IMG/VR virus record: IMGVR_UViG_3300032053_004743
Coordinates: 1 to 32,458 of that record
Length of the DNA stretch: 32,458 bases
Reading direction: 5' to 3' (one strand)
From: a virus
Shown here: positions 2,509 through 30,048 of the stretch, one piece after another
Position numbering within the stretch: the stretch's first letter is position 1
Layout of the letters: each line of letters begins with the position of its first letter
The notes under the pieces: generated by a model
What the model saw: only the letters and a program-made list of their open reading frames with translations
Told to the model about the DNA's origin: nothing
Database searches by the model: none
Program-made: the position numbers and the translations under genes

Positions 2509-5500
2509 TTAGTATTTGATCTTGTCACTAATATCACCACTCCATTTACTTCCATTTCCCACAAACATTTCTGACTCAACAACTTCCCCATCACCTAGAT
2601 ACTTTGATAATCTATTAAATTCTTTTTCTTTATTTACCTTCATACTACCAATTTCACCACTAGCTATATCTCTTAATATACCTTCCTGATCTAATATTTT
2701 TCGCAATTCTCGAATATCACTCCCAGGATACCCCTTGTCCTCAAGGAATTCCTCTATTACATCTAGGGCTTCCATGGGGTCTCCACTATTAATAGCTTGT
2801 CGGAACCTATTTCCATCTAAGTCACCCCATAATGGTGACTCCGTATGCCCTTCCCGTACAAGGGAAGATAGTTCTGTGACCTCTGAGGCGGTCCAATTTC
2901 CATATTTCCCTTTATGGTCCCAAATATCAGATTCTGTCTTAATTTTTGCCGGGTCTTTTTTCCCACTTGGACCTGTTCCACCACCCGCACTATTTTTATC
3001 ACTAGACCCTTCAGCAGCAGGTGGCATAGAACCACCTGGAGCCCCACCAGGCATTTCCCCAGCACCTTCACCTGGCATTCCTTCACCAGGTTCACCCATA
3101 GGTGGTGGAGGGGAGAGTAGGCCGCCTCCACCACCCCCAGCTCCACCAGGTGCCGCTCCCGGCTGCATCTCTGGTGGAATATACTCAACCATCTTTCGTT
3201 CAAAAGCTTGCTCTTCCTTAATCTTAAGTACCTCTTCTTCATACTTTCGATTTACAGCTGCATACTTAGTAGTCTTAGAGAATTTGATACCCAATCCTTC
3301 CAATGCTGTCATTGCTTGGACTAGTTCTGTATTAACAGTATGATCTAACTGCTTCTCCCACTCCATCTTAGGTACAATATACCGATTCTCTTGTTCAAGC
3401 TCGTGCTGAGAACGCTTAATACGATAACGATGTGTTAACTCACCTGGACGAGGTTTAATCCAACCATTTATTTTTGCTATTGGCTTAAAGAATTTGGGGA
3501 TAAGCCATGAATTAACAAAGAAATTACGCACAGCTTTCATGCGTTGTAGAAACACAGATAAACCAGTGTATGAACTGGCGTAACTCACCTCTCCATGCAT
3601 AAAACTCTTACTAATTCCAAGAGCAATCAGTTTAATACGTTCAATGACTTCATTATGCTGACTAATATTCATTACACGTTCTTGAACACCAACTAATTCA
3701 AATTTAATACCATAGTGGTACACCAACCAACTAGCAGGATCCATCTCAGCTTGGGCTAGCAATTGAAGTAAACGTTGCTCGTGCTCTGGAGATGGGATCC
3801 AACCAGTCTGAGGATTCCCCAAGAGGGCTGCCTTCAGGGGTGCCGCTTGTCGACGTGCCGTCTGAATACTATTATAGGTTCCAAGTCCATAGGCTTGATA
3901 TGAATGATCACCACTAACTGTTATGTTATATACACAGTCATTATATTTAACTATATCTACACTAGTAATTGGTACATAAATAAAATTATCATCCATCCAC
4001 GTGCGACAGGGAATAGCCTCATTATACCCTTCTCTCTCACGTGGTGAATTTTTACCTAAAACTATCTTCCATAGAGTATCTAATGATGGCCCCTGTATAG
4101 ATAATACCCATTGATCTTTACGTTTCTTACCATCTGACTGTTTACGTTTTGAATATGGAACATAACTAATAGCAGCAAATATACCACAATGAGCACATAT
4201 TTGACGAATTTGATATATAAGCTGTTGTGAAACACTCGAACACTTAATTTGTAAAGTATGGCTGACCCTATTTTTTGATTTTCTAAACGAGCCGTCACCG
4301 GCAAAATATCCTTTTAATAATTCTTTCTTTAATTTAATTGGCCAAGACATAATCTCTTTTGTTAATTTCTTGTATTCAGCATATTCACCACCATCAGCTC
4401 GTAACATATTAGCAATTGATAAGCTAGATTTTCTATGAGCAGATACTGTACAGCCATTACGTTTGATATCCTGATATATATGACCAACAGTATTGAATTT
4501 CTTCAATATCCTAGCAATATCAAACGCCAATGTATTTAATTCGTCTAAACATAAGCTGAAATTTAATCCTCTACCCCAAGAAAGATTCTTAGAACTTCCT
4601 TCTGCCAAATAATATCCTAATAATCTAGCATATTCTATAGTTTTGTTAGTTTTTATTTCCTTGAATTTTCTAGGCAACATTAAATAATCGCCGGGTCTTA
4701 CATCCTCAGCCTTTAGCTGCTTATAAGGTTCATACCATTCTGGAACCCTTACTTGCCATCGATTGGTTCCTTGCCCCTTCCATTTAATTACATTTTTATA
4801 TTTACCTTCACCAAACCCACTACTATGTCCACCAGCAAATGATGCCCCACCATGCATTTCCATACCACAACCACACAAACATGTACGTGGTAATGCAAAT
4901 ACCGGGTATTTATGATTTTTAGTTGATTCTAAGGCTATAGTCCCCTGTGCTTTTACAATAACAATTTCTTTAGGAAAATCTTCTACCCACACGGCATCAA
5001 CAGTAGATTCATAACCATGTCTATCCAACACTTTATCATCAACTGATATATCACATATTGATTTAACAGAACCATCACTCATAGTGACTTTAGTGTTCTT
5101 AGTGTAACAGGCATTATATACGCCGTCTTCGTACATCAGTATTCGCCACATCCTACTAATAACACTTGTACCACGTGTATCATACGGATGCAGACGACGC
5201 GGAAGAAATGTACAATTAACTGGACTAAGTGGTATATTTTGACGAGCAATTAAACGTGAGATTAATTCCGGTGGCATCTGTTCTCGAACACGACGTAACA
5301 ACGTATTATTAGAAGTTAAAACTGCACGAAGCCGATCATCTGGAATAAATTCAATAATTGGATCCATCTTAATAAATGGTGCATCAATTACTTCAAGCTG
5401 ATCTGGATTATGTAAAGCTATATAAGACCATACCCCCTTAGTTTCATCGAACATACAATGTGGGACACATTCTCCAATAACCATAAATTCCTTAACCATA

Positions 5501-6042
5501 TACTCAAGAATTTTTAATAATTCAACGTCTTTACACATCTCCTCATAAGCTTCTCTAATTTCACCAGTTATGCCTTCACCAGATAATTGAAATTCTGACC
5601 AAGGCATCATACTATACAGGTCTAAACAAGAACTAATAACTGGGTCAAGTTTATAAAACAAACGCCAATAACGATTGGCTAAGATACGGTGCACAGGATA
5701 GTGCATCCTGTCCGGTGACTCGTATTCTGGCATGTAGGGGCGTTGTGGTGTTACCATTGCCCCACCACTTGTTAATCCACCACCTCCACCATATCCAACA
5801 CCACCACCCCAGTCTGCTCGTTTTTGAGTTCTAGGATCTAATTCAGCACCTTGAGGTAATATATCTTCAAAGAAATTACGAGATGTCGATCCATGTTTAG
5901 ATGCTAAACCTGGAACAAAAGACTCAAATTTAGAAGCTATATCCTCAACAGTTTGTGGTGTTAAACCATGGGGCATAGGATCCTTATTAGCCTGTAGCCT
6001 AGGGTCTCCATATTTATTCCCTAGTATAATTTTATTTGACAT
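2509..6042 (-). CDS. Portal protein precursor, interrupted by an intein
   Basis: The 1177-residue precursor should splice to a 764-residue portal, the ring at the capsid vertex through which DNA is packaged and ejected. N-extein: an unstructured Gly-rich start (residues 78-95), then HYPVHRILANRYWRLFYKLD and further portal-like alpha/beta sequence to residue 311. C-extein: resumes with SIQTARRQAAPLKAALLGNP, a helical stretch typical of large-phage portal clip and stem regions, with conserved features such as the segment ending LGISKSFMHGEVSYASS. The tail is a low-complexity Pro/Gly linker (about 990-1060) followed by a charged C-terminal segment. The intein occupies residues 312-724. The gene starts 6 bases after the zinc-ribbon gene stop, with a poor ribosome site. 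Portal assignment rests on sequence character plus its position near terminase; I am fairly but not fully sure. Confidence 0.75.
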   Translation of the reverse strand: MSNKIILGNKYGDPRLQANKDPMPHGLTPQTVEDIASKFESFVPGLASKHGSTSRNFFEDILPQGAELDPRTQKRADWGGGVGYGGGGGLTSGGAMVTPQRPYMPEYESPDRMHYPVHRILANRYWRLFYKLDPVISSCLDLYSMMPWSEFQLSGEGITGEIREAYEEMCKDVELLKILEYMVKEFMVIGECVPHCMFDETKGVWSYIALHNPDQLEVIDAPFIKMDPIIEFIPDDRLRAVLTSNNTLLRRVREQMPPELISRLIARQNIPLSPVNCTFLPRRLHPYDTRGTSVISRMWRILMYEDGVYNACYTKNTKVTMSDGSVKSICDISVDDKVLDRHGYESTVDAVWVEDFPKEIVIVKAQGTIALESTKNHKYPVFALPRTCLCGCGMEMHGGASFAGGHSSGFGEGKYKNVIKWKGQGTNRWQVRVPEWYEPYKQLKAEDVRPGDYLMLPRKFKEIKTNKTIEYARLLGYYLAEGSSKNLSWGRGLNFSLCLDELNTLAFDIARILKKFNTVGHIYQDIKRNGCTVSAHRKSSLSIANMLRADGGEYAEYKKLTKEIMSWPIKLKKELLKGYFAGDGSFRKSKNRVSHTLQIKCSSVSQQLIYQIRQICAHCGIFAAISYVPYSKRKQSDGKKRKDQWVLSIQGPSLDTLWKIVLGKNSPREREGYNEAIPCRTWMDDNFIYVPITSVDIVKYNDCVYNITVSGDHSYQAYGLGTYNSIQTARRQAAPLKAALLGNPQTGWIPSPEHEQRLLQLLAQAEMDPASWLVYHYGIKFELVGVQERVMNISQHNEVIERIKLIALGISKSFMHGEVSYASSYTGLSVFLQRMKAVRNFFVNSWLIPKFFKPIAKINGWIKPRPGELTHRYRIKRSQHELEQENRYIVPKMEWEKQLDHTVNTELVQAMTALEGLGIKFSKTTKYAAVNRKYEEEVLKIKEEQAFERKMVEYIPPEMQPGAAPGGAGGGGGGLLSPPPPMGEPGEGMPGEGAGEMPGGAPGGSMPPAAEGSSDKNSAGGGTGPSGKKDPAKIKTESDIWDHKGKYGNWTASEVTELSSLVREGHTESPLWGDLDGNRFRQAINSGDPMEALDVIEEFLEDKGYPGSDIRELRKILDQEGILRDIASGEIGSMKVNKEKEFNRLSKYLGDGEVVESEMFVGNGSKWSGDISDKIKY
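3871..5109 (-). other. Portal intein with LAGLIDADG homing endonuclease (413 aa)
   Basis: This is a protein-splicing element inside the portal, with junctions MYEDGVYNA/CYTKNTKVTM and GLGTYN/SIQTARR. It has Cys1, a TKNH block B motif near intein residues 63-66, two LAGLIDADG helices (LLGYYLAEG, about 163-171, and LLKGYFAGDG, about 264-273) and a C-terminal block CVYNITVSGDHSYQAYGLG ending in Asn, followed by Ser+1. The penultimate residue is Tyr instead of the usual His. Residues 77-95 carry CLCGCG...FAGGH, a metal-binding-like motif also seen in phage homing endonucleases. The endonuclease half would cut intein-free portal alleles. Splicing itself is inferred from intact motifs. Confidence 0.92.
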
Positions 6043-6389: not shown

Positions 6390-9300
6390 TTATGCATGAC
6401 GATACTTCAAACGTTCTTGATCTGCTGGACGAGAAATATCTCTGCTCTCTCTAGTCTCTAGAGGATCAATTTCGTTTTTCATAAAGCTATCGTCTATTGA
6501 GCCTGGGAAAGCTATACCAGATTCTTTATCAGAATGTGGTGCCTCTTCTACCCAATGGTCCTTAGTATGAGGAAACACATAAGAACAAGCATCACGACCA
6601 TCTTCTAAGGTGATTAATATACGCTCGTATGGTTGTTCAAAAGCATCCACTTCGGCCAAACATTCATCACTTACTTGGTATAATTCTCCAATAATTGAGT
6701 TTATACCACCTTCAACTAATCCTGGACTATCTTCTGCTGTAATCAATTCATATTTAGGCATAGTTTTAATAGCACCTAAAAATTTAGCGTTCTCAAGAAA
6801 ATGATGATTTGGTTCACCTTTTCGGAGTGTGCCATAGACAAAAAGATAGTTTGACTGCGGGGCATCAGCAGTTGGACCACCAATACCACCAACCTGCGAT
6901 GTACCAGGCCCTACATAGTCTGATTTTGTTTTCTTATTGATTTTGGGATCAAATGTATCAGCCTCTTTATCATTCCCAACCAAAGCCGTAAAAAAACCAG
7001 ACCCATCTGGTAGTTTATGCATTTTTTGACTATTCATGTGTAACACTTGTGTGCCAGTTGGACCCACATCTTTAATTTTCTTTTCAGGAAATATCATCTT
7101 ATGGACTGGTATTTCACCATACTGATCTTTTACTTCCTTCATAAACTTGTTATTCATTAACATTAGTCTTACTATATTGTTAGAGAGATCTTTTATATCA
7201 ACATTAATATCGGTATACTTAGCTAACCACTGCATAGTAGATTGATTATCCATATCATTAATAATTTTTAATGCCATGTCAGCATATGCAGCCTGCTTCA
7301 ACATGGCTACCATCTGCATATCTCCAGCATTATCTAATTTAATAATACGAGGATCACCCATACCCCAAATTTCAATTTCATTTACTATCCATGATCCAGA
7401 TGGATTCACGTTATCAAATTTAGATTCCTCACCAGGATCAACGTATTCAATAGTTACATGACCTTTAAATGGTCTATCAGGATTCTTTAATTTAAATCCG
7501 TCGTCCAACAATCTTTGTTTAATTACGTCGTGTAATCCTGTTAGAAATTCACTTTTAATTGGACTATGAAGTATTCGTTGATCATGTTGATTGGTGAATT
7601 CGTCTGGTGGAAGAAGCTCAATTTCAAATGGTCCAGTTCGTACCAATTCTTCTCTAACAATCTGTTCTAATCTATCAAATTGACCTTCTGGTACATCACC
7701 AATATAAAGCAAGGTCATGTGTGGATCTGAATCATCTTCACCAGCACGTCCTTTTATTGGATATTGTTTAGCTAATTCTGGTGGAAGTGGAATGAATAAT
7801 CCAACTTTTTCACCAGATTTTTTACCGGCCATATATTTAAGACCGGCAGACATTTTAAATGATTTTTTAGTTTGTTCTGCCTTCTTTTCTTCAGATGGAA
7901 TTAGATCTTCCTGTCCACGTCTATCTTCAGGCTCGCCATACAGCGCATTGACCAATTTTTCTATTGGCACCTCTCTAATATCTCCAAACATATACCCTGG
8001 GAGATGCTTAAGATACATATCAACAGCTTCTTCTTCAGACTGCGCACCGAGTACGACTTTATCCTCGTCATATGATTGATCATCTTTTAATTGTTCAATT
8101 ATATATGCTATTTCAGAGTCTCCATCCATTAAATAAACATCTAAACCTTCAGTATCTGCTCCTTCAATACCACTAGCGAACCCGTAATCGCACTTCATAT
8201 GTGTTACATAAGTATCATCACCTTTATATGATCTAATAGAACCTTTAGGCCATTCAACATCAATCTTAATACCTTTATAATTTTTCTTATCTTTTACTTC
8301 ATCCTCGGCCACTTTACGAATTTCTCTATCCCATTTTTGAGTGTAATCACTACCAGCTGTTAATTCGTCCAATAGCTCTTTTGGTATTCCATAATAATGA
8401 CTAAGAAAATCCATCATCTTACCAGTTGAATGGACTTGGTTAAGACCAATACTAAATGTTGCCATATCAGTGTGAATATTACCAGTTGGTATTAGTTTAC
8501 CCATAGTTGACCTTATATCATAAACTAATGCTGCCCAATCTGGATCACCTGGTGCAAAGGCAGGATCGCCTGAAATTAATAACCAATTCTTATATACATT
8601 TTCTTTAAGGAAAAGAATGGCTTTCTTAAGTAGACCGGCTAAAAGGGTTCTCATTTCACTAACAATAGCCTGACCCTCTTCTCCTAAACCTTCTTCTACT
8701 TTCTTATCTTCTAATTTTGAAATCTTATAGTAATATTCATAAATAGTTATTAAATCTTGAGCAGTTAATAAAGTATCAGCCTTCTTTATCAGCCTCCCCT
8801 TAATCTCATTTAAAGCAGTAACCCAATCACCATCAAATGGAACATTACGGTCATCTAGATATACGTGAGCCGGGAGCTTCTTCCCTACATAAATTTCAGA
8901 ATAAGGAATTCCATTAGTGTCTAATTCGGTACTTATTGCTTCTTTTAAATCATCCTCTTGTTGTTTATTTTTGGTAAAATATTGTCTAGCAGTATAGATA
9001 GACACTTTAACATTTTCATTGATTAGTTCTTGTAAAGCTTCCATGGCCCCTTTAATTGGTTTTCCAAACAGATGCTTGCCACTTTTATCCTGATAAATCC
9101 CTTCGGAAGGGGGTTCAAGGATTGTTCCGTCGAGATCGATTGCGACCCAAGAATAGTCTGGTCCTTTGTTTGGGTTAATGTCTTCGTATTTTTGGGCGTG
9201 GAGGATGATGTTATGTTTTTCTTTATTGGCATCTTCATACCTTGGGTTTGGTTGTCCAATGCCATCAGTATATGGAGGATAGACGGCTTCAGACAATGGA

Positions 9301-9683
9301 TCTATATCCTCCTCACCCATTTTATCTGGTGGATAGCCCCCCTCAAATTGGTTTACACTTTTATATGAATCTTCCCACATACCATGTTGGGTATTCACTC
9401 GCTGATTCGGTTTGGAGGTGTGTCGTTCAGTAGTAAGATCTGTTAGTGTTTGACCATATTCTGCCTGTCTAGGCATGTGGTAAAGTGATTCCATCGACCC
9501 ATTTTCATTATCAGATTGTTCTCCTGCCGGATACTCGGAAGGAAATGATAATTGTTCTGCCCCACCAACATCTTCAGTTTCTTTATCTATTATATTTACC
9601 GCTGATTCTTTATCACCTAATTCTTTGGATAGTTTCTTTAGTTTCCGCAAATCACTATCTATCCAACTTCTTCTTTTCTTCAT
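6390..9683 (-). CDS. Multi-enzyme protein: HAD phosphatase, PPase-like, 2H phosphoesterase, GGCT-like
   Basis: A 1097-residue protein with four recognisable enzyme domains on one chain. Residues 1-175 are disordered and acidic. Residues 178-295 are a HAD hydrolase (DLDGT at 183-187, T231 of YTAR, DD at 277-278). Residues 300-455 are a helical linker region. Residues 470-585 match the inorganic-pyrophosphatase-like domain known from phage polyvalent proteins (GADTEGLDVYLMDG, then DEDKVVLGAQSEEEA). Residues 625-775 are a 2H phosphoesterase (2'-5' RNA ligase-like) with both catalytic HxT motifs, H655-M-T and H742-V-T. Residues 946-1040 are a gamma-glutamylcyclotransferase (AIG2)-like fold (FVYGTLRKGE, with E1016 in DAFEQPYE as the probable catalytic Glu). 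A ribosome site (GGGTGA) precedes the ATG. It lies between terminase and portal, so a virion or ejected protein is likely, but this is inference. Domain calls are strong; the substrates are unknown. Confidence 0.85.
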   Translation of the reverse strand: MKKRRSWIDSDLRKLKKLSKELGDKESAVNIIDKETEDVGGAEQLSFPSEYPAGEQSDNENGSMESLYHMPRQAEYGQTLTDLTTERHTSKPNQRVNTQHGMWEDSYKSVNQFEGGYPPDKMGEEDIDPLSEAVYPPYTDGIGQPNPRYEDANKEKHNIILHAQKYEDINPNKGPDYSWVAIDLDGTILEPPSEGIYQDKSGKHLFGKPIKGAMEALQELINENVKVSIYTARQYFTKNKQQEDDLKEAISTELDTNGIPYSEIYVGKKLPAHVYLDDRNVPFDGDWVTALNEIKGRLIKKADTLLTAQDLITIYEYYYKISKLEDKKVEEGLGEEGQAIVSEMRTLLAGLLKKAILFLKENVYKNWLLISGDPAFAPGDPDWAALVYDIRSTMGKLIPTGNIHTDMATFSIGLNQVHSTGKMMDFLSHYYGIPKELLDELTAGSDYTQKWDREIRKVAEDEVKDKKNYKGIKIDVEWPKGSIRSYKGDDTYVTHMKCDYGFASGIEGADTEGLDVYLMDGDSEIAYIIEQLKDDQSYDEDKVVLGAQSEEEAVDMYLKHLPGYMFGDIREVPIEKLVNALYGEPEDRRGQEDLIPSEEKKAEQTKKSFKMSAGLKYMAGKKSGEKVGLFIPLPPELAKQYPIKGRAGEDDSDPHMTLLYIGDVPEGQFDRLEQIVREELVRTGPFEIELLPPDEFTNQHDQRILHSPIKSEFLTGLHDVIKQRLLDDGFKLKNPDRPFKGHVTIEYVDPGEESKFDNVNPSGSWIVNEIEIWGMGDPRIIKLDNAGDMQMVAMLKQAAYADMALKIINDMDNQSTMQWLAKYTDINVDIKDLSNNIVRLMLMNNKFMKEVKDQYGEIPVHKMIFPEKKIKDVGPTGTQVLHMNSQKMHKLPDGSGFFTALVGNDKEADTFDPKINKKTKSDYVGPGTSQVGGIGGPTADAPQSNYLFVYGTLRKGEPNHHFLENAKFLGAIKTMPKYELITAEDSPGLVEGGINSIIGELYQVSDECLAEVDAFEQPYERILITLEDGRDACSYVFPHTKDHWVEEAPHSDKESGIAFPGSIDDSFMKNEIDPLETRESRDISRPADQERLKYRHA

Positions 9684-9725: not shown

Positions 9726-12700
9726 TTACCATCGTCTACCACCAGCCCCCATTAAACCAGATCTTGCAGGATTAAATATAGAACCACCATTAGAAAAGCT
9801 CCAAGATTGGCTCATTACCTCTTCAGATTTAAGCCTTGACTGACGACTACGAATTTTTTCTCCACTGGGTCTAATTTGACTATTCTGAAGCATCTGGTGT
9901 AAGTGGACAAGTACAACTGCTACGTCATCAGAATTATAACCCCGTCGTTTACCTTTTTGTGGATTTATTACTCTCTTATCATCCACTGATCGTTCTAGTC
10001 GCCCTAATTCATATAATCCAACCGCTGCTGCTGATTTAAATGGTGGATCTAATCTATCATCACCGGGTTCTTTAGGTAATAATCTAATTCTTCCCATTTG
10101 TCCATCAGCAACAAATTTAATATAGTCATCTGGTCTAATTGACTTCTGTTCAGCTCGAATACCTAAATTACGAATTTGTTGTATTAGTGTAACACTATTC
10201 CAACGGTCAAATTCAATTTGGGCGATCTTTTGATGCTTCATCTGAAAAGCGATTAAATCAATACATGAGTCAAACCATACTTCCATACCATTACTTGGTA
10301 ATATTCTAAGGACCCAATCTATTACAGATATAAACTCTTGATTGTCACCCTCTTGTTTAATTTCAAGATGTCCACAAGCACCAGTGAATGAGTCGAAATT
10401 TTGTCCCGCATCATAACATATGAATCGAGAAGCATCACGGGATAATTGACACTCTACCATTTGAGCTTTGTGATATCTTTGACCTGTTTTATCAGTAAAT
10501 GGAATAATTTCTATCTTTGCTGTTGGTTGAAGGGCAATGTCAACAGCTCGTTCTTCAAATTTACCAGGATCAACAATTAGAGGATTAGCTGCTAATGGTG
10601 GTTTAGCACCAAAATCACGCTCAGTACCTACTGGATCCTTTTCGTATGCTTCATTGTAGTATTCACGTTTCTCATCTGGGTTGAAATCCCAAGTAGCATA
10701 ATGCATTGCATACATACCCTTAATCTTTGTTGACTGATACATCAGTTCCATAGATTTATCATCAACTGAGATTGGGGATGATACTGATACAATTAAGCCA
10801 AGCCATGTTAATAAATCACGATTAATAGTCGCAGATCGGATTGTACGAAGTGAGTTCTCCATTACGCGGTATGCTTCTTCAGCACCCATGGATGATTCTG
10901 ATTGTTTAAACCGCGACAATTCATCAATAAATGACGCAATTCGTGTACGACCTGCTAGACCAGACGAATTGGAGTTCTTAGAATTAAACTTTGTATTTAA
11001 AAAACCATTCTCAATTTCTTTGGTTGTTTCTTGGTATTTCCATCCTTCCATGCCGGTTGTTATATGTTGTTCTTTTTGTTTCTTTTTTAACCATTCAACA
11101 CATCGATTAAACCAGGGCGAATTAATTCTAGCATTTCTATAGTGTGCCCATATTGTATCATTAGATTGAACCTCAGTAGACGCAATAAATGTAACTTCAA
11201 ATGGTGGTTTCAATCCAAAATAAGTTGATAATTTTCCATCTTCTTGACTTAGTGCAAGAGTCATTAAACGGTGTTCAACATAAGCACCAACTAACGCAGC
11301 AGTTACAGTCTTGCCACTATTATGGTTAAGAACAGAATTAGCTACAAATGAATGTGTCCCAGGCACATGTAAGTCACCCATTGGTACTTCTGGACCATCT
11401 TCAATCTTAACAATGGGTAAGAACCGAGATTCTTCTCTAGATAAACGCTCTAGTAGCTGTAAATCTTCTTGTCTAAAAGTTTTATTTGTAAAATACTCAA
11501 TCAATCTCTCGTTAATATCAACATTGTCTGATAATAATTTGTAGTATGTTGATTCAATTGAGGTATTTTGATACTCGGTAATATAATCAAGTATTTGTTT
11601 TAATCGTGGTCTATATATAGACTTATATTCCCCAGCTTGTATGTGAGCTATAGTATCTGCCATCCCAGATTCGGTCTTACATATAATTTTATTAAAGATA
11701 GCCTTAATTAACGGGATAGCGTCAAATATTTTAGTTCGCTCGCCAGTAGTTTTCAAATATAATTGGTAAAGTTCATTATACTCATTTGTGACGTCAAAAC
11801 CAGCAAAATAATTGAGTAAATCAGACTTCTTAACAACCCTAGCATGTAATTGGTCCAATAGACTGAACTCAATATGATTATTACGATATTCCTTCAGGTA
11901 CTTAATCAAATTTACCACTAAAAATCTGGATGCAGTGTCATATTGTCCACTTATAACATTATTAATATGATATGACACAGGAATACTAATACTATTATGT
12001 ATTCTACTTAATACTGGTCGTAGTCCAGGAATAAATGAATCTTGAATTTTGGTGTTTTTCACTATCTCAATACATTCACCTAGAGCTTTTTGTTTTCTTG
12101 CAGAATAAAAACCAATCTTGTTGGCATATTTGATAATATTATCACCATATACACGGACAGCATAGCAATCATGATCAAATTTTTCTTTAGAAGAGAACTT
12201 ACGAGACTTAGAAGCACTAATAGTCGCATCTATCCCAAGATTCCATAATATTTGTTGAGTTTCTAATGCCAATTGCTTAGATACAGTATACGATGACACT
12301 GTTGGTTTATTAGACTCTTTCTCAATGGCTGCTGTACCATCACCCTCAAAATAGGCACGCAGAAATGCACAAATTATAGGTTCAGATGCTGACCATAATG
12401 CTTCTGGGACACACTTTGTTTTAGCTACTGATTCTTTAACCCCAAGTGCTTTTAAAAATCTACGAACACCAGCGTGATTAACATCTATATCAAAAACTGC
12501 ATTATGTAATATTCTAGCACTCTTAACGTTGAATAACCTATGATTCAAAGCAACAAAATGCTGCAGTGTTTCTTCTTCAGAGTTAAAGAATGTAAAACAT
12601 AGGTCTGTTGATACATCGCCCTCCGATATCAAATACCCGATAAGTGCTGCTAGATCTTCTGACCACTCTGTCGGAGTGGTGTACACAACTTTACCAGCGT

Positions 12701-13505
12701 ATTTAATATTATTAATTGCTGATGTTGTTACATTATTGAACGTATCCACACCATACCATTTAGGTGCAACTCGACATTCAACATACTCACCAATCTTTAA
12801 TTCATTGGTCTTATGCCATCCCCACTCACCATTATGGAATCCATATAATGGATGAACTGGACTAACTACATGCTCTATACCACCAGCTAATGTAATCTTT
12901 TTGGATGGTAAATTACCGGCATAGTACACATCAGAAACCGTCTCCCAGCCATTCTCTCCAAATACTTGTAAGTTATTAAGAGGATAGAATTGATCAACTT
13001 TAGGATTAGGTGGCAATAGATCTTTTAACCTAATCAACCCATAATTAGTATATAACTGAACATTTGTACAGTAGCAGCGCATCCCACATAGAAGGTTGAA
13101 TTGGTTATATCTTTCTATTAACTTATCTTTAATTAATTCGTGTCTGGTTGTCCCACATTTTGGACACACATCATCTTCACATTTGTCTGACCAAGTAAGT
13201 AGTTCTTCAGATTGTAAATAGGTTTTAGTTTTACCCCAGCAATCAATATCTTCTGGCTTTTGTGAATTACAGATTGGACAACGAAGCTGAAATAAATCCC
13301 TAATAACTTGATATTGCCTTACGTATTTATAAACTGAAGGAACATTTAAAAGCTGTGGCGAAGAAATAAATTCAATGATATTGGGTGCTGGGACTTTAAG
13401 ATAATCCCGTTCAATATCTTTTTCAGCTATGGGGATGGTATTAAGTAGAGGTGCTACTATAGATTCAATAGACGTACGAAAATCTTGCGACGTTTTCCCA
13501 CTCAA
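9726..13505 (-). CDS. terL: Terminase large subunit precursor, interrupted by an intein
   Basis: The 1259-residue precursor splices to a 673-residue packaging motor. The N-extein (1-143) carries cysteine pairs CPIC (76-79) and CPKC (114-117), a zinc-ribbon-like extension, and ends in LLCGMR. The C-extein starts SGKT, so splicing rebuilds the Walker A loop GMRSGKT. Walker B is IASFIDEL near 857-863. The RNase H-like nuclease follows, with acidic residues in FICYDAG (D1032), MEVWFDS (D1079) and NSDDVAVV (D1193/1194). The start appears to be TTG, preceded by AAGGTGG that overlaps the stop region of the upstream gene; no ATG is well placed. TerL cuts concatemers and pumps DNA through the portal, which is encoded two genes further on. 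I am very confident of the family. Confidence 0.93.
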   Translation of the reverse strand: MSGKTSQDFRTSIESIVAPLLNTIPIAEKDIERDYLKVPAPNIIEFISSPQLLNVPSVYKYVRQYQVIRDLFQLRCPICNSQKPEDIDCWGKTKTYLQSEELLTWSDKCEDDVCPKCGTTRHELIKDKLIERYNQFNLLCGMRCYCTNVQLYTNYGLIRLKDLLPPNPKVDQFYPLNNLQVFGENGWETVSDVYYAGNLPSKKITLAGGIEHVVSPVHPLYGFHNGEWGWHKTNELKIGEYVECRVAPKWYGVDTFNNVTTSAINNIKYAGKVVYTTPTEWSEDLAALIGYLISEGDVSTDLCFTFFNSEEETLQHFVALNHRLFNVKSARILHNAVFDIDVNHAGVRRFLKALGVKESVAKTKCVPEALWSASEPIICAFLRAYFEGDGTAAIEKESNKPTVSSYTVSKQLALETQQILWNLGIDATISASKSRKFSSKEKFDHDCYAVRVYGDNIIKYANKIGFYSARKQKALGECIEIVKNTKIQDSFIPGLRPVLSRIHNSISIPVSYHINNVISGQYDTASRFLVVNLIKYLKEYRNNHIEFSLLDQLHARVVKKSDLLNYFAGFDVTNEYNELYQLYLKTTGERTKIFDAIPLIKAIFNKIICKTESGMADTIAHIQAGEYKSIYRPRLKQILDYITEYQNTSIESTYYKLLSDNVDINERLIEYFTNKTFRQEDLQLLERLSREESRFLPIVKIEDGPEVPMGDLHVPGTHSFVANSVLNHNSGKTVTAALVGAYVEHRLMTLALSQEDGKLSTYFGLKPPFEVTFIASTEVQSNDTIWAHYRNARINSPWFNRCVEWLKKKQKEQHITTGMEGWKYQETTKEIENGFLNTKFNSKNSNSSGLAGRTRIASFIDELSRFKQSESSMGAEEAYRVMENSLRTIRSATINRDLLTWLGLIVSVSSPISVDDKSMELMYQSTKIKGMYAMHYATWDFNPDEKREYYNEAYEKDPVGTERDFGAKPPLAANPLIVDPGKFEERAVDIALQPTAKIEIIPFTDKTGQRYHKAQMVECQLSRDASRFICYDAGQNFDSFTGACGHLEIKQEGDNQEFISVIDWVLRILPSNGMEVWFDSCIDLIAFQMKHQKIAQIEFDRWNSVTLIQQIRNLGIRAEQKSIRPDDYIKFVADGQMGRIRLLPKEPGDDRLDPPFKSAAAVGLYELGRLERSVDDKRVINPQKGKRRGYNSDDVAVVLVHLHQMLQNSQIRPSGEKIRSRQSRLKSEEVMSQSWSFSNGGSIFNPARSGLMGAGGRRW
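11319..13076 (-). other. TerL intein with LAGLIDADG endonuclease (586 aa), inside Walker A
   Basis: Splice junctions are LLCGMR/CYCTNVQLYT and VANSVLNHN/SGKT. Cys1, an SPVH block B motif (intein residues 72-75), a canonical HN terminus and Ser+1 are all present. The LAGLIDADG motifs are LIGYLISEG (145-153) and LRAYFEGDG (239-247). Between the endonuclease and the C-terminal splicing block lies an extra, mostly helical region of about 200 residues (345-550), making this intein clearly longer than common bifunctional ones. Insertion exactly between GMR and SGKT means no ATPase activity before splicing. The distance from Cys1 to the glycine of block A (13 residues) matches the portal intein. Confidence 0.95.
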
Positions 13506-18597: not shown

Positions 18598-21500
18598 CTA
18601 CCGTAAACCATGGATTGGATTAGTATTAATATCGTGGTCTGAATCAGTATAATTTAATGATACCAAGCCCCTTGTATTGGAACAACGAACTTTAATTTGA
18701 GCTACACCAGCGTCTCTATCCATTTCCATAAGTTTTGGTTTACCCATTACACCAAAATCGTGGAAATATTTATCACTTTCAAGACCCTTAATATATGAAA
18801 TGATTTGATGCTGGATGTTTTGAGTACTCATACCTTCAAATTTATCTGGATCCCAGGCCAATTCAATAATGGCATAACCAGCATCTTGAGAAGATGAGGT
18901 TGAATACATACGTGTCACACAAAATCTGGTTTGAGTACGTGATGGCTGCATATTATGTGGAATATAATCCGGATCATCCCGATAAGTTTTATCGGGTTTA
19001 TTATATGCATTCGGACCTGGACCGGCTTTACTAATTCGCTTCATGTATGCACCAGCTTTAACTATTTCCTCGGGAGTCAATTCTTTTTCAATATGACCCA
19101 AAGCGAGTAGTTGTTTATCAAACTCATCTTCAGAGATCAAACCACGTTCACGCTTTTCACCTAATAACCTAGCTAAATATTTCTTAGACTCCTTCATAGT
19201 CTTTGGTGGTCTATTAATAGACATCTCTTGCATGATCTTAATGTCGTCATCAGTAAATTTATCTGAAAATCGTAGGTATTGATCATATAAAGCACCAGCT
19301 TTCGCAGCACCAACATATTCATTATATGCTTCTAACTCGTTACCTTCAAACCCCTCTCCTGGATTAAAATGATTTTCAAACAGGTACTTCATAAGTCTAA
19401 ATCTATCCCATTCGTCACCTTTTTGTTCATCTTCTTCAGATCGTGGTGTCATAATTTCATTAATGGTTCGACCAGCAAATGGTCCTTCCGGCATCTTCCA
19501 CTGAGTGGAATAATATTGAACTTCTTTTTTATATTTATTTTTACTTTCTTCTTGTGTTTCTTTTTTAATTTTAGCTTCCTGCTCTTGTTCAATCTCGATC
19601 TTAGACTTTGGTTTAGCTTTCAGCTCCTGTTCGGTCATCATATCTGGTGCTTTCACACCATGAATTTTTGCAACCCTATCCCGTTCTTTAGCCATTCCTT
19701 CTTCAATAAATTCAGAACGTCGCTCTGGAGCCATACCAACCGATTGTATCCAAAGCTTAGATTTCATGAATTCAAACCAGGTTTGTGGATCATTTCGAGC
19801 CATGAAATTGGCTACATGCTCACCACCCATTTCTCTAATGGCTGTAGTAATAGACATTCCAACTAATGGTCCTTCACCCTTTTCAACCATGTAATTATGA
19901 ATTTCAGATTTAGCCTTTCGAAGAGCTTCTTCTTCTCTACGAGAACGATCCATTTCTATTTCTGTTTTTATTCCTTCTTCAAGATTGGGTGGGCGGGTTG
20001 TACGCTTACTTTCTGGTGGGCGGGTTGTACGTTTAAATTTTTCTTTAGCTCTTTGTAAAGCCTCTAAAGCTTCAGTCTGCTCAATGGGCATTGGTCCTGG
20101 TAAATCACCCTTCACATAAGGTGCTTCTTTACCAATTGCTTCTTCTTGCATCTTCCTCTGTTTAAGAAGATCTGCAGGAGATTGCTGTAAATATTTTTTA
20201 GACCGTTCTACATCCTGCCTAGACTTTGTTCTCGCTTTTTCTCTTTCTTTACGAGCAAGAGCTTGGGCGACTTGTTCCTTAAGCAATTGATTAAATTCTC
20301 TAGTTGGACGAAATTTACCCTTATAATCATAATGACCTAAAGCCGTTATTTTAGCAAATTCCAAAAAAGGTTTAACTAGTTCCGGACGAAAGTCCTTTAT
20401 AAATTGTAAAGCATATGATGGATCAGTGAAAAAAATGTCTTTCAGATTCATTTTATAATATTTAGCATAATGTCCGGTCTTGTCGGGAACACTAAATGGA
20501 ACCCAATCTTCCATTGTTTCCATGAGAGTAGAAACAGATGGATTTGTTCGTTCGGTATGCTCAATAATTTTATTCCATCTATTATATGCTTTACCCCATT
20601 CTTTTTCAGTTAAACCGCTACCTGTTCCACCAGCTTCAAATAGTGGCTTCATATGCTCAGGAAGAGGTCCTGCTGGGAAAATCTTTTCAATAGGTGATTT
20701 CTTTTGATCTTCAAAAGCTTGGTTCATTTTCCATAGTTTACTTTTCTGAACCTTAACTTTAGTATCAAGTTCATCACGTGTTTTTTGTTTAATAACATTT
20801 TTTCTATCGGCGTCGTATTCTTTCTTAGCTTCCTCAAGTTCAGATTCTAATTTTTCTACTTCTTGTTCTGCCGCAATTAACTGATCTTCAGTAACTGTAG
20901 TGGTCACATCTGGGCGTGTCTCTTGTGAAGAAGCTGGCCCTTCTTGTTCTTTTAATAGTTCCTTTTGTCTTTTTTGTTCATTCTTCCAATCTTCTTTAGT
21001 CATGGTGTCAGCCGTTTTAGGCTGTCTTGATTTTAAGAGTTCTTCAACAACTTTAGCATCTTGTTGAGGAACTTGCATTGTAATGTAACCAGATACACCC
21101 TGAGCTGGCTGCTTCATTTTCTCAGTCTGTTGCTCGTGAAATAGCTTACGTTGTTCGTCAAGTTGCTTCCAACGTGGATTCTTCCACCTACTTTCATATC
21201 CATGAATTAATTTCTTAAGTTGTTTATATGCCCGATTAGAGTCATTTATAGCATAGGTAAGAATAAAAGCATTTGCTCTATCATCTAAAGTTCTACTACC
21301 ATATTCATCCTCAATTAAATTCATGATTTGTGGTTTAATTCGGATATAGTCATGAACAATAGTGGTCACTGCCTGTTGAACATCTGGATCCTTCTGTGCT
21401 ATATCAATAGCCCATTTAGTAATATTTTTAAGATCTGGTTTAAGATATTCTCCAGTAGGTTGCTTATTGCCCCAATTGACGGCAATTTTTTCCATGGCAG

Positions 21501-26522: not shown

Positions 26523-26948
26523 CTACTGAACAAAACATTCAGATAGTTTAGTTTTATATCTAAATCCATGTTTGACTTCGAAACCAGTACATGAACCTAT
26601 AATACACATTCCTAATATATTACTCCATTTACTACAACCAGGACATTGATCTGAACCAGGATGATATATTTGAATTGTTGATACTTTTTCTTGAGCTAAT
26701 GAGTCAATAAAGTCCGAAACACCGGCACGTTTCAAAATTTCATATGATTTCTGTACAAGCATAAAAACAGATTCCACACCACCTTTATCAGGATGAGATA
26801 TGGATACCATCTCTTTATACTTCTTTTTAATGTCGTTATGAAACTCTTGAAATAGAACTTCAACTGGTTTGGTCACAGACCAAATTTCAGCATGTGCCTT
26901 AACCATTGGCCAAATACCAAGGTTTATGCTAGCTTCATAAACATTCAT
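26523..26948 (-). CDS. Small J-domain (DnaJ-like) protein with C-terminal Cys cluster
   Basis: A 141-residue protein. Residues about 30-80 form a J domain: helix II (FHNDIKKKYKEMVSIS), the HPD motif at 52-54 within HPDKGG, then helix III (VFMLVQKSYEILKRAG). The HPD tripeptide is what stimulates the ATPase of DnaK/Hsp70. The C-terminal part has C102, C105, C115 and C120 (CPGC...C....C), probably a zinc site. The gene overlaps the previous stop by one base (TAATG) and ends 11 bases before the next start. It could recruit host DnaK to fold or assemble the giant neighbouring proteins; that role is inferred. The J-domain call rests on the motif and the helix pattern. Confidence 0.8.
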   Translation of the reverse strand: MNVYEASINLGIWPMVKAHAEIWSVTKPVEVLFQEFHNDIKKKYKEMVSISHPDKGGVESVFMLVQKSYEILKRAGVSDFIDSLAQEKVSTIQIYHPGSDQCPGCSKWSNILGMCIIGSCTGFEVKHGFRYKTKLSECFVQ

Positions 26949-27253
26949 TAACTAATTCTGGTCGTATCAAACGACTTCAACTCACCATCACCATTAAACT
27001 CGGCGGTGATAAGGATCCTAGCATCCCGATTATCAACCTTACCAGTGAATGCTGCTTCCAAAGATAGTGTACCATCTTTAGCAGCTTCATGGGCCAATGG
27101 CTTAAGAGTACCTTCAAGTGTGGTGGCTTGAATCTCACGCTTTAAGGCAGCCTTAATTCGTCGTGGAATTTCTCTTACCCACATTTCTCCGAGCTGGCCT
27201 AAATAACCAGACCAATAAGCTTTCGCAGTAGCATCAACGGCTTTCTTTTCCAT
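26948..27253 (-). CDS. Small paralogue of a segment of the 1561-aa protein
   Basis: A 101-residue protein of unknown function. Its first 32 residues (including DATAKAYWSGYLGQLGEMW and REIPRR) clearly match residues about 450-482 of the large protein at 18598-23283 (DDTAKKYWSGYLKDYGKAF and RDIPRK). The remainder is helical followed by beta strands (GTLSLEAAFTGKVDNRDARI). The ribosome site AGGAGA lies 6 bases before the ATG and overlaps the preceding gene's stop region. Because the same module appears alone and embedded, it probably binds a common partner or symmetric site on the virion, or is an assembly peptide; this is inference. Confidence 0.65.
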   Translation of the reverse strand: MEKKAVDATAKAYWSGYLGQLGEMWVREIPRRIKAALKREIQATTLEGTLKPLAHEAAKDGTLSLEAAFTGKVDNRDARILITAEFNGDGELKSFDTTRIS

Positions 27254-27262
27254 TTTTATCTC

Positions 27263-29056
27263 CTATTCAGCTGGTTGCTTGGATAAAATCTTTGCTTTTT
27301 CATGCATGTCTATTTCTAATTTATCTATCTTTGGATTCCACTCATGTATTTTACCATCATCTGTACGGACCATAATAGTTTTAGACGGTGTAACTTCTTG
27401 AATTACACCTGTTACTGCCTGTGATCTACCTGGTCTACCAACATCAGGCATGTCTTCTTTAGGATCCGCGTTTCGTACTCTATCACCAACACCCACCCAG
27501 AATTGCTTACCTTTACCCTGTCTGGCCCTAAATGCATCCCAAACTTGAACTCTCTCCCGGATTTTTTGTTTCTCAACCGGGCGACGAGGTTCATCAGGCT
27601 CACCAATTCCCTCTAATGAGAGGTGTTCTGGTTCTTGAAATGGAGTTTTAACTAATGGTGCCGGTGTCCTCTTAGCAACCTCTAATTCAGACTCCTCTAC
27701 ACCCTCGGGTTCAAGACCCTCTAGTGAAAGGTGATCAGGTTCTTCTCCCTCTTCCTCTTCTTCTTCATCTATTTCTTCATACTTTTTCAGTGTTTGTTCT
27801 TCAGGCTCTTCTTGTTTAATTTCTTCTTCATCTTCAAATGGAGCCTCAACAGTTTGTCCTTCTTGATACTCAGTAACATCGTCAGAAAACAGGTCGCCTT
27901 CGACTCTCCTAGCACGTTCATCTACACTTAAACCTGCAACTTGTTCAACTACATACTTAGCAAGTTGTGGCTTGGATTTAACAAGCATCACAAATTCAGC
28001 AGGATACTTCAAATATGCTGTAACTAAGAAATCTACTGAATCACCAATAGTCTCAAATTCACTAAACTTCTTGACAAGAAGTTCAAAAACCTTCATATCA
28101 ACTTCGGGTTCTTCAACTTCTTCAACTGGTTCTTCAGTTATTTGTTGCGTCCAACCAAGTTCAGGACTCTCAGCATATGCTGGGACAGTTGATACTTCTG
28201 ATTCTTCAGTAGTTGGGGCTCGTTTCCTAACAGGTTCATATAAACCACTAAGTTCTGTTTCGCCTGCTGGCTCAATTTTCTCTATCATTTCACTAAATGA
28301 TGGCTCGGCTTCTGATTTATCTAGTTCTGGCTCTGAGATTGGTAGTGGGAAAATATCCTTATAAAGAGACTGCCATTGTTCTGGAGTAGTTTTAGCTAGC
28401 TCTTCATAGAGTGTTTTAAATTTATAAAGCTCATATTTATTCTTTTGATCTTCTCGTTTAGGCCATAGATCTTGGGTTATATGATCTTCAATAGCCTCAA
28501 GAGCTATATTCTTTGCATCTTCAACAGAGTGCATCTTGCCAATCCTGGCCGGTAACAATTTATTCTTAAGCCATGCCAGATTTTGTTCCCAAGAAATAGC
28601 AAGTTTTCTGTTAGCTGTAACTACTACAACAACTGATTCTGGCTCTTCTCGCGGCTCAATCATTCGCATTAAATCAGACATATGCTCATGTTCTTCAGAT
28701 AAAATATCACCAATATCATTTTGAAGACCATGGATACCAATCGAAAGTTCCATAGCCTCATGGTATAAATTAGCACCATCTATTTCAGATTGAAGTAGCC
28801 ACTTAATTGATTTATTTAAATCACCTTCGAATTGCTCAACTGGTGGAACACTGGTTGGTGGGATACCACCAAGATCAGTAACCCAACGAATAATTAGTCT
28901 AGCATGCTCAAGTTCATTGGCCGCATGTTCACTAAAATGTTCCTCAACAGTATCTGTATGCGGACCATAATGCAAAGCAGAAAGAAATGTGTAACGCATC
29001 CACTGTGCGTGCTCTGCTTGTATTATATTACAGAGTAGTTCAGTTAAATTACTCAT
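27263..29056 (-). CDS. Bacterioferritin-like di-iron domain fused to long acidic tail and SH3-like end
   Basis: A 597-residue protein using the ATG at 29056 (TGATG overlap with the upstream stop; a GTG one codon earlier is less likely). Residues 1-135 form a four-helix ferritin-like bundle with a full set of di-iron ligands: E15, E48 and H51 (ELEH), E91, E122 and H125 (EHEH). The spacing closely follows E. coli bacterioferritin (E18, E51, H54, E94, E127, H130), but the residue equivalent to the haem-binding Met52 is Leu, so haem binding is not expected. A second helical part (about 150-215) and an extremely Glu-rich linker (about 220-500) follow, and an SH3-like beta domain (about 505-580, WVGVGDRVRNADPKED) ends the chain. 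Iron oxidation or peroxide protection is the family role; here it is untested. Confidence 0.8.
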   Translation of the reverse strand: MSNLTELLCNIIQAEHAQWMRYTFLSALHYGPHTDTVEEHFSEHAANELEHARLIIRWVTDLGGIPPTSVPPVEQFEGDLNKSIKWLLQSEIDGANLYHEAMELSIGIHGLQNDIGDILSEEHEHMSDLMRMIEPREEPESVVVVVTANRKLAISWEQNLAWLKNKLLPARIGKMHSVEDAKNIALEAIEDHITQDLWPKREDQKNKYELYKFKTLYEELAKTTPEQWQSLYKDIFPLPISEPELDKSEAEPSFSEMIEKIEPAGETELSGLYEPVRKRAPTTEESEVSTVPAYAESPELGWTQQITEEPVEEVEEPEVDMKVFELLVKKFSEFETIGDSVDFLVTAYLKYPAEFVMLVKSKPQLAKYVVEQVAGLSVDERARRVEGDLFSDDVTEYQEGQTVEAPFEDEEEIKQEEPEEQTLKKYEEIDEEEEEEGEEPDHLSLEGLEPEGVEESELEVAKRTPAPLVKTPFQEPEHLSLEGIGEPDEPRRPVEKQKIRERVQVWDAFRARQGKGKQFWVGVGDRVRNADPKEDMPDVGRPGRSQAVTGVIQEVTPSKTIMVRTDDGKIHEWNPKIDKLEIDMHEKAKILSKQPAE

Positions 29057-29358
29057 CACTCTTTATCCATAAACATCTTATGCACAGCTGATGCAGTTAC
29101 CAAATATGCTATTTTCTTGTAGGCATTTTGTCCTACAAAATCAACAATCTCATTACGCGAAACACATTTAGCAGCTCGTCGATCTTCCGGATCGATCTTG
29201 TCTTCTAAACCTTGGTTAAATGAAGAAATGGCCTGAGTAAGTAACATGGCCCAAATTTCATCTTTATGTTTTGGATCTCTGTTGTATGACTGTGCAATTT
29301 TTGATTGATTAAAATTGTTAAAATACCAACTAACTACTTGATTTCTTAAATTTGACAT
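29056..29358 (-). CDS. Small helical protein, first gene of the leftward block
   Basis: A 100-residue protein, mostly helical, with no recognised family. It starts MSNLRNQVVSWYFNNFNQSK and ends in KKIAYLVTASAVHKMF. It is the promoter-proximal gene of the leftward structural block, and its stop overlaps the ferritin-like start (TGATG). A ribosome site (TAGGAT) lies about 7 bases before the ATG. The gap to the divergent plus-strand gene (29359-29468) should hold the block's promoter, but I could not pick out a convincing minus-strand -10/-35 pair. Confidence 0.6.
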   Translation of the reverse strand: MSNLRNQVVSWYFNNFNQSKIAQSYNRDPKHKDEIWAMLLTQAISSFNQGLEDKIDPEDRRAAKCVSRNEIVDFVGQNAYKKIAYLVTASAVHKMFMDKE

Positions 29359-29429
29359 TTATATCCTACAGTCAAGAAATTACAGTACATTCAATAGTAA
29401 AAATTGTACAGGCCCCTAGCAATGATTAC

Positions 29430-29446
29430 TTGGCCCGCTCTTTGCA
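29430..29446 (+). promoter_or_regulatory. Possible sigma-54-type promoter
   Basis: TTGGCCCGCTCTTTGCA has the GG-N10-GC arrangement of -24/-12 promoters and differs from YTGGCACGRNNNTTGCW at two positions. Predicted transcription would begin near 29457, just ahead of the AGAGG ribosome site and the ATG at 29469. An overlapping TATAGT at 29448-29453 could instead act as a sigma-70 -10 box, but its -35 (ATTACT) is poor. Confidence 0.4.
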
Positions 29447-29468
29447 CTATAGTAAAATAGAGGTACAC

Positions 29469-29642
29469 ATGTACAAGAAATTATGCATATTGTGTGATCA
29501 AATAGTCAGACGACCACTTGACCATCCACACTGCATTGGTTCAAGATGTGGAGATTTGTACATCAGAGAGGCCAAACGAAAACCGCTGCCCACAGAAATA
29601 ACTCAAGAAATTGATATACAAAAACTAGGTCTATTAAGATAA
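29469..29642 (+). CDS. Small Cys/His-rich protein
   Basis: A 57-residue protein; the ATG at 29469 follows AGAGG by 5 bases, so it is preferred over the longer frame from 29352, which lacks a ribosome site and would overlap the opposite gene. Residues CILC (6-9), then HPHCIG and RC, give four Cys and two His, which looks like a small zinc-binding knuckle. It is divergent from the leftward structural block and its stop directly abuts the stop of the LexA-like gene. No known function; small zinc proteins next to regulators are common in phage control regions. Confidence 0.55.
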   Translation: MYKKLCILCDQIVRRPLDHPHCIGSRCGDLYIREAKRKPLPTEITQEIDIQKLGLLR

Positions 29643-30002
29643 CTATTCAATTTTAATATTCAACTTAGACAAAAGTTCTACTGCTGTGTTAATAGGAAGA
29701 TTATGCCCTCTTGTTTTTAGGTCAGCAATTGCTTTAGAAAATAGGGCAGAGTCAATAATGTGATAACCCATGATTTTATCAACTAATTGTATTGTTCTAG
29801 CGTACGCCCTACCATTTGAATGTGCATGCGTAATATACCCTTTACTCTCAAGTTTTCGTAAATGCGCTACAGCTGAGTTATTTGATTGATATCCAAAATT
29901 GTCTTGAATTTCACGAATTGTTGGTGGATAATTATGATCCCTAAGAAATTCTACAATAAAACCATAAATTCTTTGTTGCCCTTCTGAAAGTTCAGCTCTC
30001 AT
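29643..30002 (-). CDS. LexA-type winged-helix regulator without protease domain
   Basis: A 119-residue protein. Residues 1-72 match the LexA N-terminal DNA-binding domain: LSEGQQRIYGFIVEFLRDHN, YPPTIREIQDNFGYQS (the PPT..EI..GF.S signature) and VAHLRKLESKGYI. The remaining 45 residues are helical and lack the S24 self-cleavage domain, so it cannot respond to RecA by autoproteolysis as LexA does. The start at 30002 is chosen because AAAGGAG lies 5 bases upstream; the longer frame to 30044 would begin inside the promoter. A dyad within its own promoter (30027-30039) suggests autoregulation. Probable role: repressor or timing switch for the divergent neighbouring genes. Confidence 0.82.
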   Translation of the reverse strand: MRAELSEGQQRIYGFIVEFLRDHNYPPTIREIQDNFGYQSNNSAVAHLRKLESKGYITHAHSNGRAYARTIQLVDKIMGYHIIDSALFSKAIADLKTRGHNLPINTAVELLSKLNIKIE

Positions 30003-30019
30003 GTTTACTCCTTTGGCAT

Positions 30020-30048
30020 ATAATAACATACAATGTATGCTCACACAA
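30020..30048 (-). promoter_or_regulatory. Promoter of the LexA-like gene with operator dyad in the spacer
   Basis: On the minus strand, a -35-like TTGTGT (30048-30043) and a -10 TATTAT (30025-30020) are separated by exactly 17 bases. The spacer contains CATACATTGTATG (30027-30039), a perfect 13-bp dyad with 6-bp arms around one base. A repressor bound there would cover the polymerase site. The -35 is only a partial match to TTGACA. Confidence 0.55.

Follow-up and report, generated by a model that had tools for sequence, protein, structure and literature searches.

Ferritin-like proteins in phages are known mostly as free Dps-type proteins. Dps-like proteins protect cell DNA from Fenton chemistry, and in encapsulins a phage-derived shell can host ferritins. 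Free-standing phage Dps proteins and Mn-catalases, with proposed roles in oxidative stress, are described in the cited portions of reports on Gratiaviridae and Lactobacillus phages (PMC8008677, PMC6669764). In the Vi01-like phage Sajous1 the gene product gp217, a ferritin predicted by Phyre2, was recorded among virion peptides by mass spectrometry, according to the cited part of that work (PMC10892097). Ferritin bundles dimerise and build 12- or 24-mers; the portion of the mini-bacterioferritin study used here lists the di-iron ligands E16, E49, H52, E91, E124 and H127, spaced by 33, 3, 39, 33 and 3 residues, together with tyrosines Y23 and Y98 (PMC13168243). A literature search by title and abstract returned no ferritin domain fused to a phage packaging-region protein, the Vi01-like report (PMC10892097) being the nearest.

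The window analyzed here is the whole of IMG/VR virus record IMGVR_UViG_3300032053_004743, 32,458 bases of an uncultured tailed phage. Its gene at 27263..29056 on the minus strand encodes a 597-aa protein with an N-terminal ferritin-like domain, numbered here from the ATG at 29054-29056. The ORF call (27263-29059, minus strand) begins one codon earlier at a GTG (29057-29059), a less likely start, because the inner ATG is where both orthologues, found in the related records G001 and G002, start. The 100-aa gene before it ends in a stop codon that shares bases with this ATG (TGATG). The protein is divided into a ferritin-like domain (residues 1-136; 28649..29056, minus strand), delimited by PF00210, AlphaFold2 and the match to PDB entry 9qq4 discussed below; a mostly helical middle segment (residues 137-240; 28337..28648, minus strand); an acidic linker with 29% D+E (residues 241-495; 27572..28336, minus strand); and a basic C-terminal beta domain with a pI of 9.7 (residues 496-597; 27266..27571, minus strand). 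Among the three orthologues, the ferritin domains are 59-66% identical, the middle segments 19-38%, the linkers 28-41% and the C-terminal domains 36-55%; by these alignments the ferritin domain is the most conserved segment of the protein.

The Pfam family PF00210 matches residues 7-134 of the window protein (E 1.4e-11; 45 bits, cut-off 24.5). It also scores above its cut-off in the two orthologues and in a more distant fusion on the viral contig L038, described below (E 4e-10, 4.5e-12 and 1.7e-16), that is, in four of four proteins. NCBIfam gave weak matches far under the cut-off, mostly to Dps-type DNA-protection proteins, and a PHROGs search of the window protein gave no ferritin match. With a profile of the four domain sequences, 62 different sequences in the PDB scored E <= 0.01, the best being 2qqy (E 2e-14). 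Structure prediction, proposed as a check in the earlier note, returned a confident four-helix bundle: the AlphaFold2 model built from the same four rows has a pLDDT of 88.6 and a pTM of 0.84, with helices at residues 3-27, 35-61, 80-104 and 109-133. Foldseek retrieved 163 PDB chains at E <= 0.001 with this model, the first being the mini-bacterioferritin 9qq4 (TM 0.89). VIA-align superposed model and 9qq4 over 135 residues at 1.9 A and 22% identity with a Z of 20.8, well over the caution level of about 13 for helical bundles; the Z for 2qqy was 20.7. These predictions place the N-terminal domain in the ferritin-like superfamily (PF00210). That the ligand pattern described next arose by chance on an ordinary helical protein, with no real ferritin behind it, is hardly credible: PF00210 exceeds its cut-off in all four proteins, and the agreement of AlphaFold2, Foldseek and VIA-align refutes this explanation as far as prediction can.

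The domain carries four glutamates and two histidines within one subunit, in the order E15, E48xxH51, E91, E122xxH125 and with a spacing of 33, 3, 40, 31 and 3. The predicted di-iron ligands, all encoded on the minus strand, are Glu15 in helix A (29012..29014), Glu48 in helix B (28913..28915), His51 (28904..28906), Glu91 in helix C (28784..28786), Glu122 in helix D (28691..28693) and His125 (28682..28684). Each of them is invariant in the three orthologues and, with L038 included, in all four sequences. The alignment of the four (27-63% identity to the window) has 26 invariant columns out of 136, and all six ligands are among them; the chance that six random columns would all be invariant is 2.9e-5, a figure that comes from four related rows and ignores kinship and the baseline conservation of residues. 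The second-shell tyrosines Y22 and Y98 are kept in all three orthologues; in L038 Y22 is retained and Y98 is replaced by Trp. At the position of the haem-ligand Met, taken from the cited section of PMC13168243, all four proteins have Leu (Leu49; 28910..28912, minus strand). The complete six-ligand site with bacterioferritin-like spacing and the Met-to-Leu exchange reported in the earlier note are thus both confirmed, and extend to the orthologues.

Judged by its ligand pattern, this is a bacterioferritin-type di-iron domain and, since both site and fold are conserved, likely an active ferroxidase. Phages could also have reused the bundle purely as an oligomerisation module in which metal binding is irrelevant. 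Ferritin bundles do dimerise and form 12- and 24-mers, as stated in the part of PMC13168243 cited here, and the glycine conserved in 12-mers is present (G31). The strict retention of the ligands disfavors such reuse, which we consider rather improbable: even the L038 domain, at 27% identity, has all six and Tyr22.

The remainder of the protein is less well defined. The full-length AlphaFold2 model (three rows) has a pLDDT of 46.5, falling to about 40 over the ferritin region, and was used for rough secondary structure of the tail only. In it the acidic linker is mostly of low confidence and likely disordered, and the C-terminal domain reaches a pLDDT of about 70-79 in places. Foldseek of this model gave no match at E <= 0.001, and the best rows were Tudor, PWWP and biotin ligase structures at E 0.055 or worse; a C-terminal SH3/Tudor-like barrel is therefore suspected at most. 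Profile comparison of the middle and C-terminal segments with 14 other gene groups revealed no shared domain. The fusion to a long tail recognized in the earlier note is borne out, with about 460 residues following the domain and the fusion kept in three phages; its description of some 450 residues of acidic linker plus an SH3-like end is roughly right in layout, the barrel being its weakly supported part.

The gene lies in a co-directional run on the minus strand that extends from the 100-aa gene to the portal gene and includes, besides the ferritin fusion, genes for the 101-aa, J-domain-like, 1078-aa, 1561-aa and DUF192 proteins, the terminase, the 1097-aa protein and the portal protein. The genes around the fusion overlap or are closely spaced. 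Directly upstream is the 100-aa gene (29056..29358, minus strand), kept in four relatives, and directly downstream the gene of a 101-aa protein (26948..27253, minus strand) with an N-terminal motif that recurs within the 1561-aa protein (18598-23283, minus strand) and in relatives of that protein (30 residues, hhalign E 2e-11) and may be a shared docking or targeting signal. This motif was sought in the ferritin-fusion protein and was not found there. The J-domain-like protein (26523..26948, minus strand) has an HPD motif and matches PF00226 at 26 bits, just below the cut-off of 27.8; it is small, ends in a C-terminal cysteine cluster and is kept in four relatives.

Further along the run are the terminase large subunit (9726..13505, minus strand; phrog_17415, E 2.8e-80) and the portal protein (2509..6042, minus strand; phrog_16240, E 3.9e-69), each with an intein of the LAGLIDADG type. 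The terminases of G001 and G002 are intein-free (678 and 677 aa), and the G002 portal protein (1160 aa) aligns with the window portal over nearly its whole length. A DUF192 domain is found within a 575-aa packaging-region protein (15216-16943, minus strand) with a counterpart in Virus Rctr197k. Just upstream of the late run, a 133-aa protein (29643-30044, minus strand) contains a LexA DNA-binding domain; it is too short for a full LexA and is a candidate regulator, and its gene holds this place in four relatives. Between this gene and the late run, a small ORF on the plus strand (29352-29642) has a 54%-identical counterpart in G001, from which it follows that it is probably a real gene. A promoter scan of the window gave 26 hits against 25.8 in shuffled sequence, and a terminator scan 9 against 6.2, slightly over.

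The 1097-aa protein (6390..9683, minus strand) combines matches to pyrophosphatase (InPase), 2H ligase and GGACT (gamma-glutamylcyclotransferase) domains with a weak HAD match, and its counterparts vary, being a 618-aa protein in G001 and two ORFs in G002. By its domain matches it looks like a 'polyvalent' protein, a class of which a share is predicted to be packaged, according to the cited section of PMC5512222. The ferritin-fusion protein thus sits among late genes with likely packaged enzymes, a context that would suit a location in the virion. The earlier note had called it a protein of the phage structural block; the shared co-directional run with terminase and portal genes agrees with this, and a place in the virion itself would be an extrapolation from that context. 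Capsid proteins of the family phrog_2522 were detected in five of the six lineage records searched and, distantly, in L038, and no capsid gene was found among the ORFs scanned in the window fragment.

The gene context also bears on whether the protein could be an iron-loaded part of the virion that engages host uptake receptors, the 'Ferrojan horse' idea. The detection of the predicted ferritin gp217 of Sajous1 by mass spectrometry would fit it; however, the same report, in the part cited, found the phage to depend on neither TonB nor FeoB in the host it tested (PMC10892097), and the window gene belongs to a packaging/portal run with no tail fibre gene identified beside it. We regard such iron carriage as very doubtful.

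Virus Rctr197k, known from a large but partial phage genome recovered from a DAMO/AAA enrichment culture, has a terminase with 43% identity to the one in the window, and on terminase sequence the window phage belongs to the Rctr197k-like lineage. Rctr197k has been placed near the group of Pseudomonas phage PaBG, according to the cited portion of PMC7412058. A single-protein scan of viral contigs gave no close relatives, and terminase scans reached six IMG/VR records (G001-G006); with the window and Rctr197k they form a lineage set of eight. The ferritin fusion occurs in three of the eight: the window, G001 (659 aa) and G002 (424 aa). PF00210 gave no match in the partial Rctr197k record of 197 kb. 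A domain profile run on G003-G006 detected the ferritin in none of the four, including elsewhere in the G003 and G006 fragments; this search had no positive control of its own, and a like search with PF00210 detected the domains of G001 and G002. Since G004 (7.5 kb) misses the locus and G005 ends inside the neighboring gene run, both were left out of the presence/absence count, and two of the eight records (G003 and G006) cover the syntenic locus without a ferritin domain.

The gene order common to five phages is LexA-like, 100 aa, either the ferritin fusion or a protein of 212-220 aa, 101 aa, J-like, 1078 aa and 1561 aa, and it is in G003 and G006 that a 212- or 220-aa protein lies between the 100-aa-like and 101-aa genes. 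With a profile of the middle segment of the window protein, these two ranked first and second among 462 ORFs (E 0.006 and 0.010), and in the reverse search the G002 orthologue ranked first of 448 (E 0.013). The highest of 600 shuffled tails scored 7.1 bits; the G002 tail scored 11.4, and the window and G001 tails scored below zero. In blastp, the G003 protein matched the G002 orthologue at E 6.8e-5. A whole-tail profile placed the two proteins fourth and sixth, not significantly; a C-terminal profile gave no significant match to them either, though both sides have an RRPVE motif in common. On account of these weak sequence matches and the same position at the locus, the 212-220 aa proteins are probably homologous to the middle (137-240) of the ferritin-fusion protein.

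The ferritin domain, in these sequence comparisons, looks like a module gained or lost on one late protein. In the terminase tree that includes the distant Rctr197k, ferritin carriers were grouped in 28% of bootstrap trees; in the tree without Rctr197k they formed one side of a branch with support of 89/92. The terminase tree allows a single change, and this could have been a gain or a loss. With no domain at the locus in G003 and G006 and none elsewhere in their fragments, its function would be dispensable or supplied otherwise, a point against the reading favored below. Genome-contig scans with the ferritin domain and with the terminase returned no relative, and therefore we name no host or cellular donor.

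Outside this lineage, tblastn of the whole protein, the ferritin domain and the L038 domain gave no match for any of them in 50,697 deposited phage records. L038 itself is a 5.7-kb viral contig with a phrog_2522 capsid protein (E 9e-12) and, four genes after the capsid gene, a ferritin fusion of at least 502 aa (4226-5731 of L038, plus strand) inside which the contig ends. A complete ferritin domain at about residues 56-181 is followed there by a Gly-rich and then a Gln/Ala-rich stretch. When the L038 proteins were compared with 970 ORFs of the window lineage, one of eight, the ferritin fusion, had a match, confined to the ferritin domain at 30-32% identity; this match was seen in blastp with the low-complexity filter off and disappeared with the filter on. 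The L038 domain is 27% identical to that of the window, and the rest of the protein is otherwise unrelated. BFVD also contains ferritin-like models for long proteins (290-763 residues) of uncultured tailed phages; several bear the name prohead protease or Dps, as judged from entry names, lengths and scores.

Because of the L038 fusion and these long ferritin-like proteins, we suggest that ferritin fusions recur in phage head regions through repeated recruitment, and ferritin modules on long phage proteins are not unique to the window phage. The earlier note had considered such domains rare. The empty search of 50,697 records agrees with that, and L038, the BFVD proteins and the Vi01-like ferritin (in the cited part of PMC10892097) qualify it.

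The same comparison concerns the view that the fusion is a late non-virion protein, structural by gene position only, whose ferritin domain would act in the infected cell by storing iron or limiting oxidative damage. The free phage Dps proteins and Mn-catalases with proposed oxidative-stress roles lend it some credit, but in the cited portions of those reports they are not described as long fusions in a packaging/portal run, as the window protein is (PMC8008677, PMC6669764), and the L038 fusion lies just after a capsid gene. We consider a role confined to the infected cell possible and on the whole unlikely.

We tentatively favor, for the protein as a whole, a haem-less bacterioferritin-type domain joined to the N-terminus of a late assembly-region protein, which would handle Fe(II) or peroxide around phage DNA. 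The domain would bind two irons and oxidize Fe(II) with O2 or, more likely, peroxide, and the bundle would form dimers or a larger assembly. The tail, with its helical segment, acidic linker and basic beta domain, may tie the domain to the virion or to the packaging/assembly machinery; an acidic linker with a basic end that may be SH3/Tudor-like is what one might expect of a tether to DNA or an assembly partner. The phage could gain shielding of its DNA from Fenton chemistry during assembly, storage or entry, and the weak NCBIfam matches, mostly Dps-type DNA-protection proteins, speak for this role. After DNA protection, our confidence decreases from an in-cell role through structural reuse to iron carriage for entry.

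More speculatively, we can imagine the phage head as an iron/peroxide compartment. Ferroxidase domains would be anchored to an internal head protein through acidic linkers and would line the HK97-type shell around the DNA, as an independent counterpart of ferritin-loaded encapsulins. The module would come and go on one and the same protein among sister phages and, elsewhere, be transferred to other head proteins. This extension is a long shot.

Three phages keep a domain with an intact predicted ferroxidase site on a packaging-region protein, and in two sisters the same protein seems to lack it, which offers a natural comparison. It hints that some phages bolt an iron/peroxide-handling unit onto a late, possibly virion, protein, and poses the question of whether phage DNA is protected, or iron loaded, in or at the virion of some phages. 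A single recombinant domain and a single virion preparation would be enough to test this.

Among the described systems, the mini-bacterioferritin Mper-mBfr (9qq4) shares with the phage domain the four-helix-only fold, the intrasubunit di-iron ligands and the two tyrosines; Gly34, kept in 12-mer types, corresponds to Gly31 here in all three orthologues, which aligns with Gly32 of 9qq4. The haem Met (Met52 in the published alignment), however, is Leu49 in all three phage domains, the interface His29 is Ser26 by ungapped offset from two flanking ligands, and the mini-bacterioferritin has no N- or C-terminal extension, whereas about 460 residues follow the phage domain. With no Met, no His and a long extension, the phage domain departs from the signature in the cited sections of PMC13168243, and we rejected this assignment. 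The 24-mer bacterioferritins are marked by a haem Met and a C-terminal E-helix. The Met is absent from the phage domain, but even in bacterioferritins it is only 'mostly present' according to the same sections (PMC13168243), and the phage chain runs on into other segments.

The Bacillus anthracis protein 2qqy, the top PDB sequence match (E 2e-14) with a fold Z of 20.7, differs in that it is a cellular protein of 149 residues that stands alone. Dps-like proteins (8w1d/8w1e, PA4880; 2clb) resemble the phage domain in having a bacterioferritin-type site without haem, as described in the cited part of PMC13168243, and were matched by the profile at E 8.4e-11 and 1.8e-10. DpsL proteins have an extra helix in the B-C loop (PMC13168243, same part), unlike the phage model, which has none between residues 61 and 80; on this model, of lower pLDDT in part of the loop, a DpsL assignment was discarded.

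In Flp-fusion and Flp-cargo encapsulins, too, a ferritin-like domain is associated with an HK97-type shell, by fusion or by packaging. In the systems covered by the cited part of PMC8346489, the Flp either forms part of the shell protein or is packaged separately as a decameric cargo, whereas the phage domain is on another long protein. The rest of that protein matches no capsid family, and it was set aside as a Flp-fusion encapsulin; the capsid gene (phrog_2522) is separate in all five lineage records where it was found. The Dps and ferritin proteins of Gratiaviridae and Lactobacillus phages (PMC8008677, PMC6669764) and the Vi01-like gp217 (PMC10892097) are phage-encoded too, and gp217 was seen in virion mass spectrometry; in the cited portions of these reports none is described as the N-terminal part of a packaging-region protein of 600 residues.

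Polyvalent proteins, which combine several effector or enzyme domains on one chain in a packaging-gene context, differ in that the ferritin-fusion protein has a single known enzyme-type domain, and the word 'ferritin' has a count of 0 in PMC5512222. InPase and 2H domains, both of which are present on the 1097-aa neighbor in the window, are treated there, and polyvalent proteins are long phage proteins with enzyme domains for which packaging is predicted (PMC5512222). Of these features, the ferritin-fusion protein has the packaging-gene context and one known enzyme-type domain.
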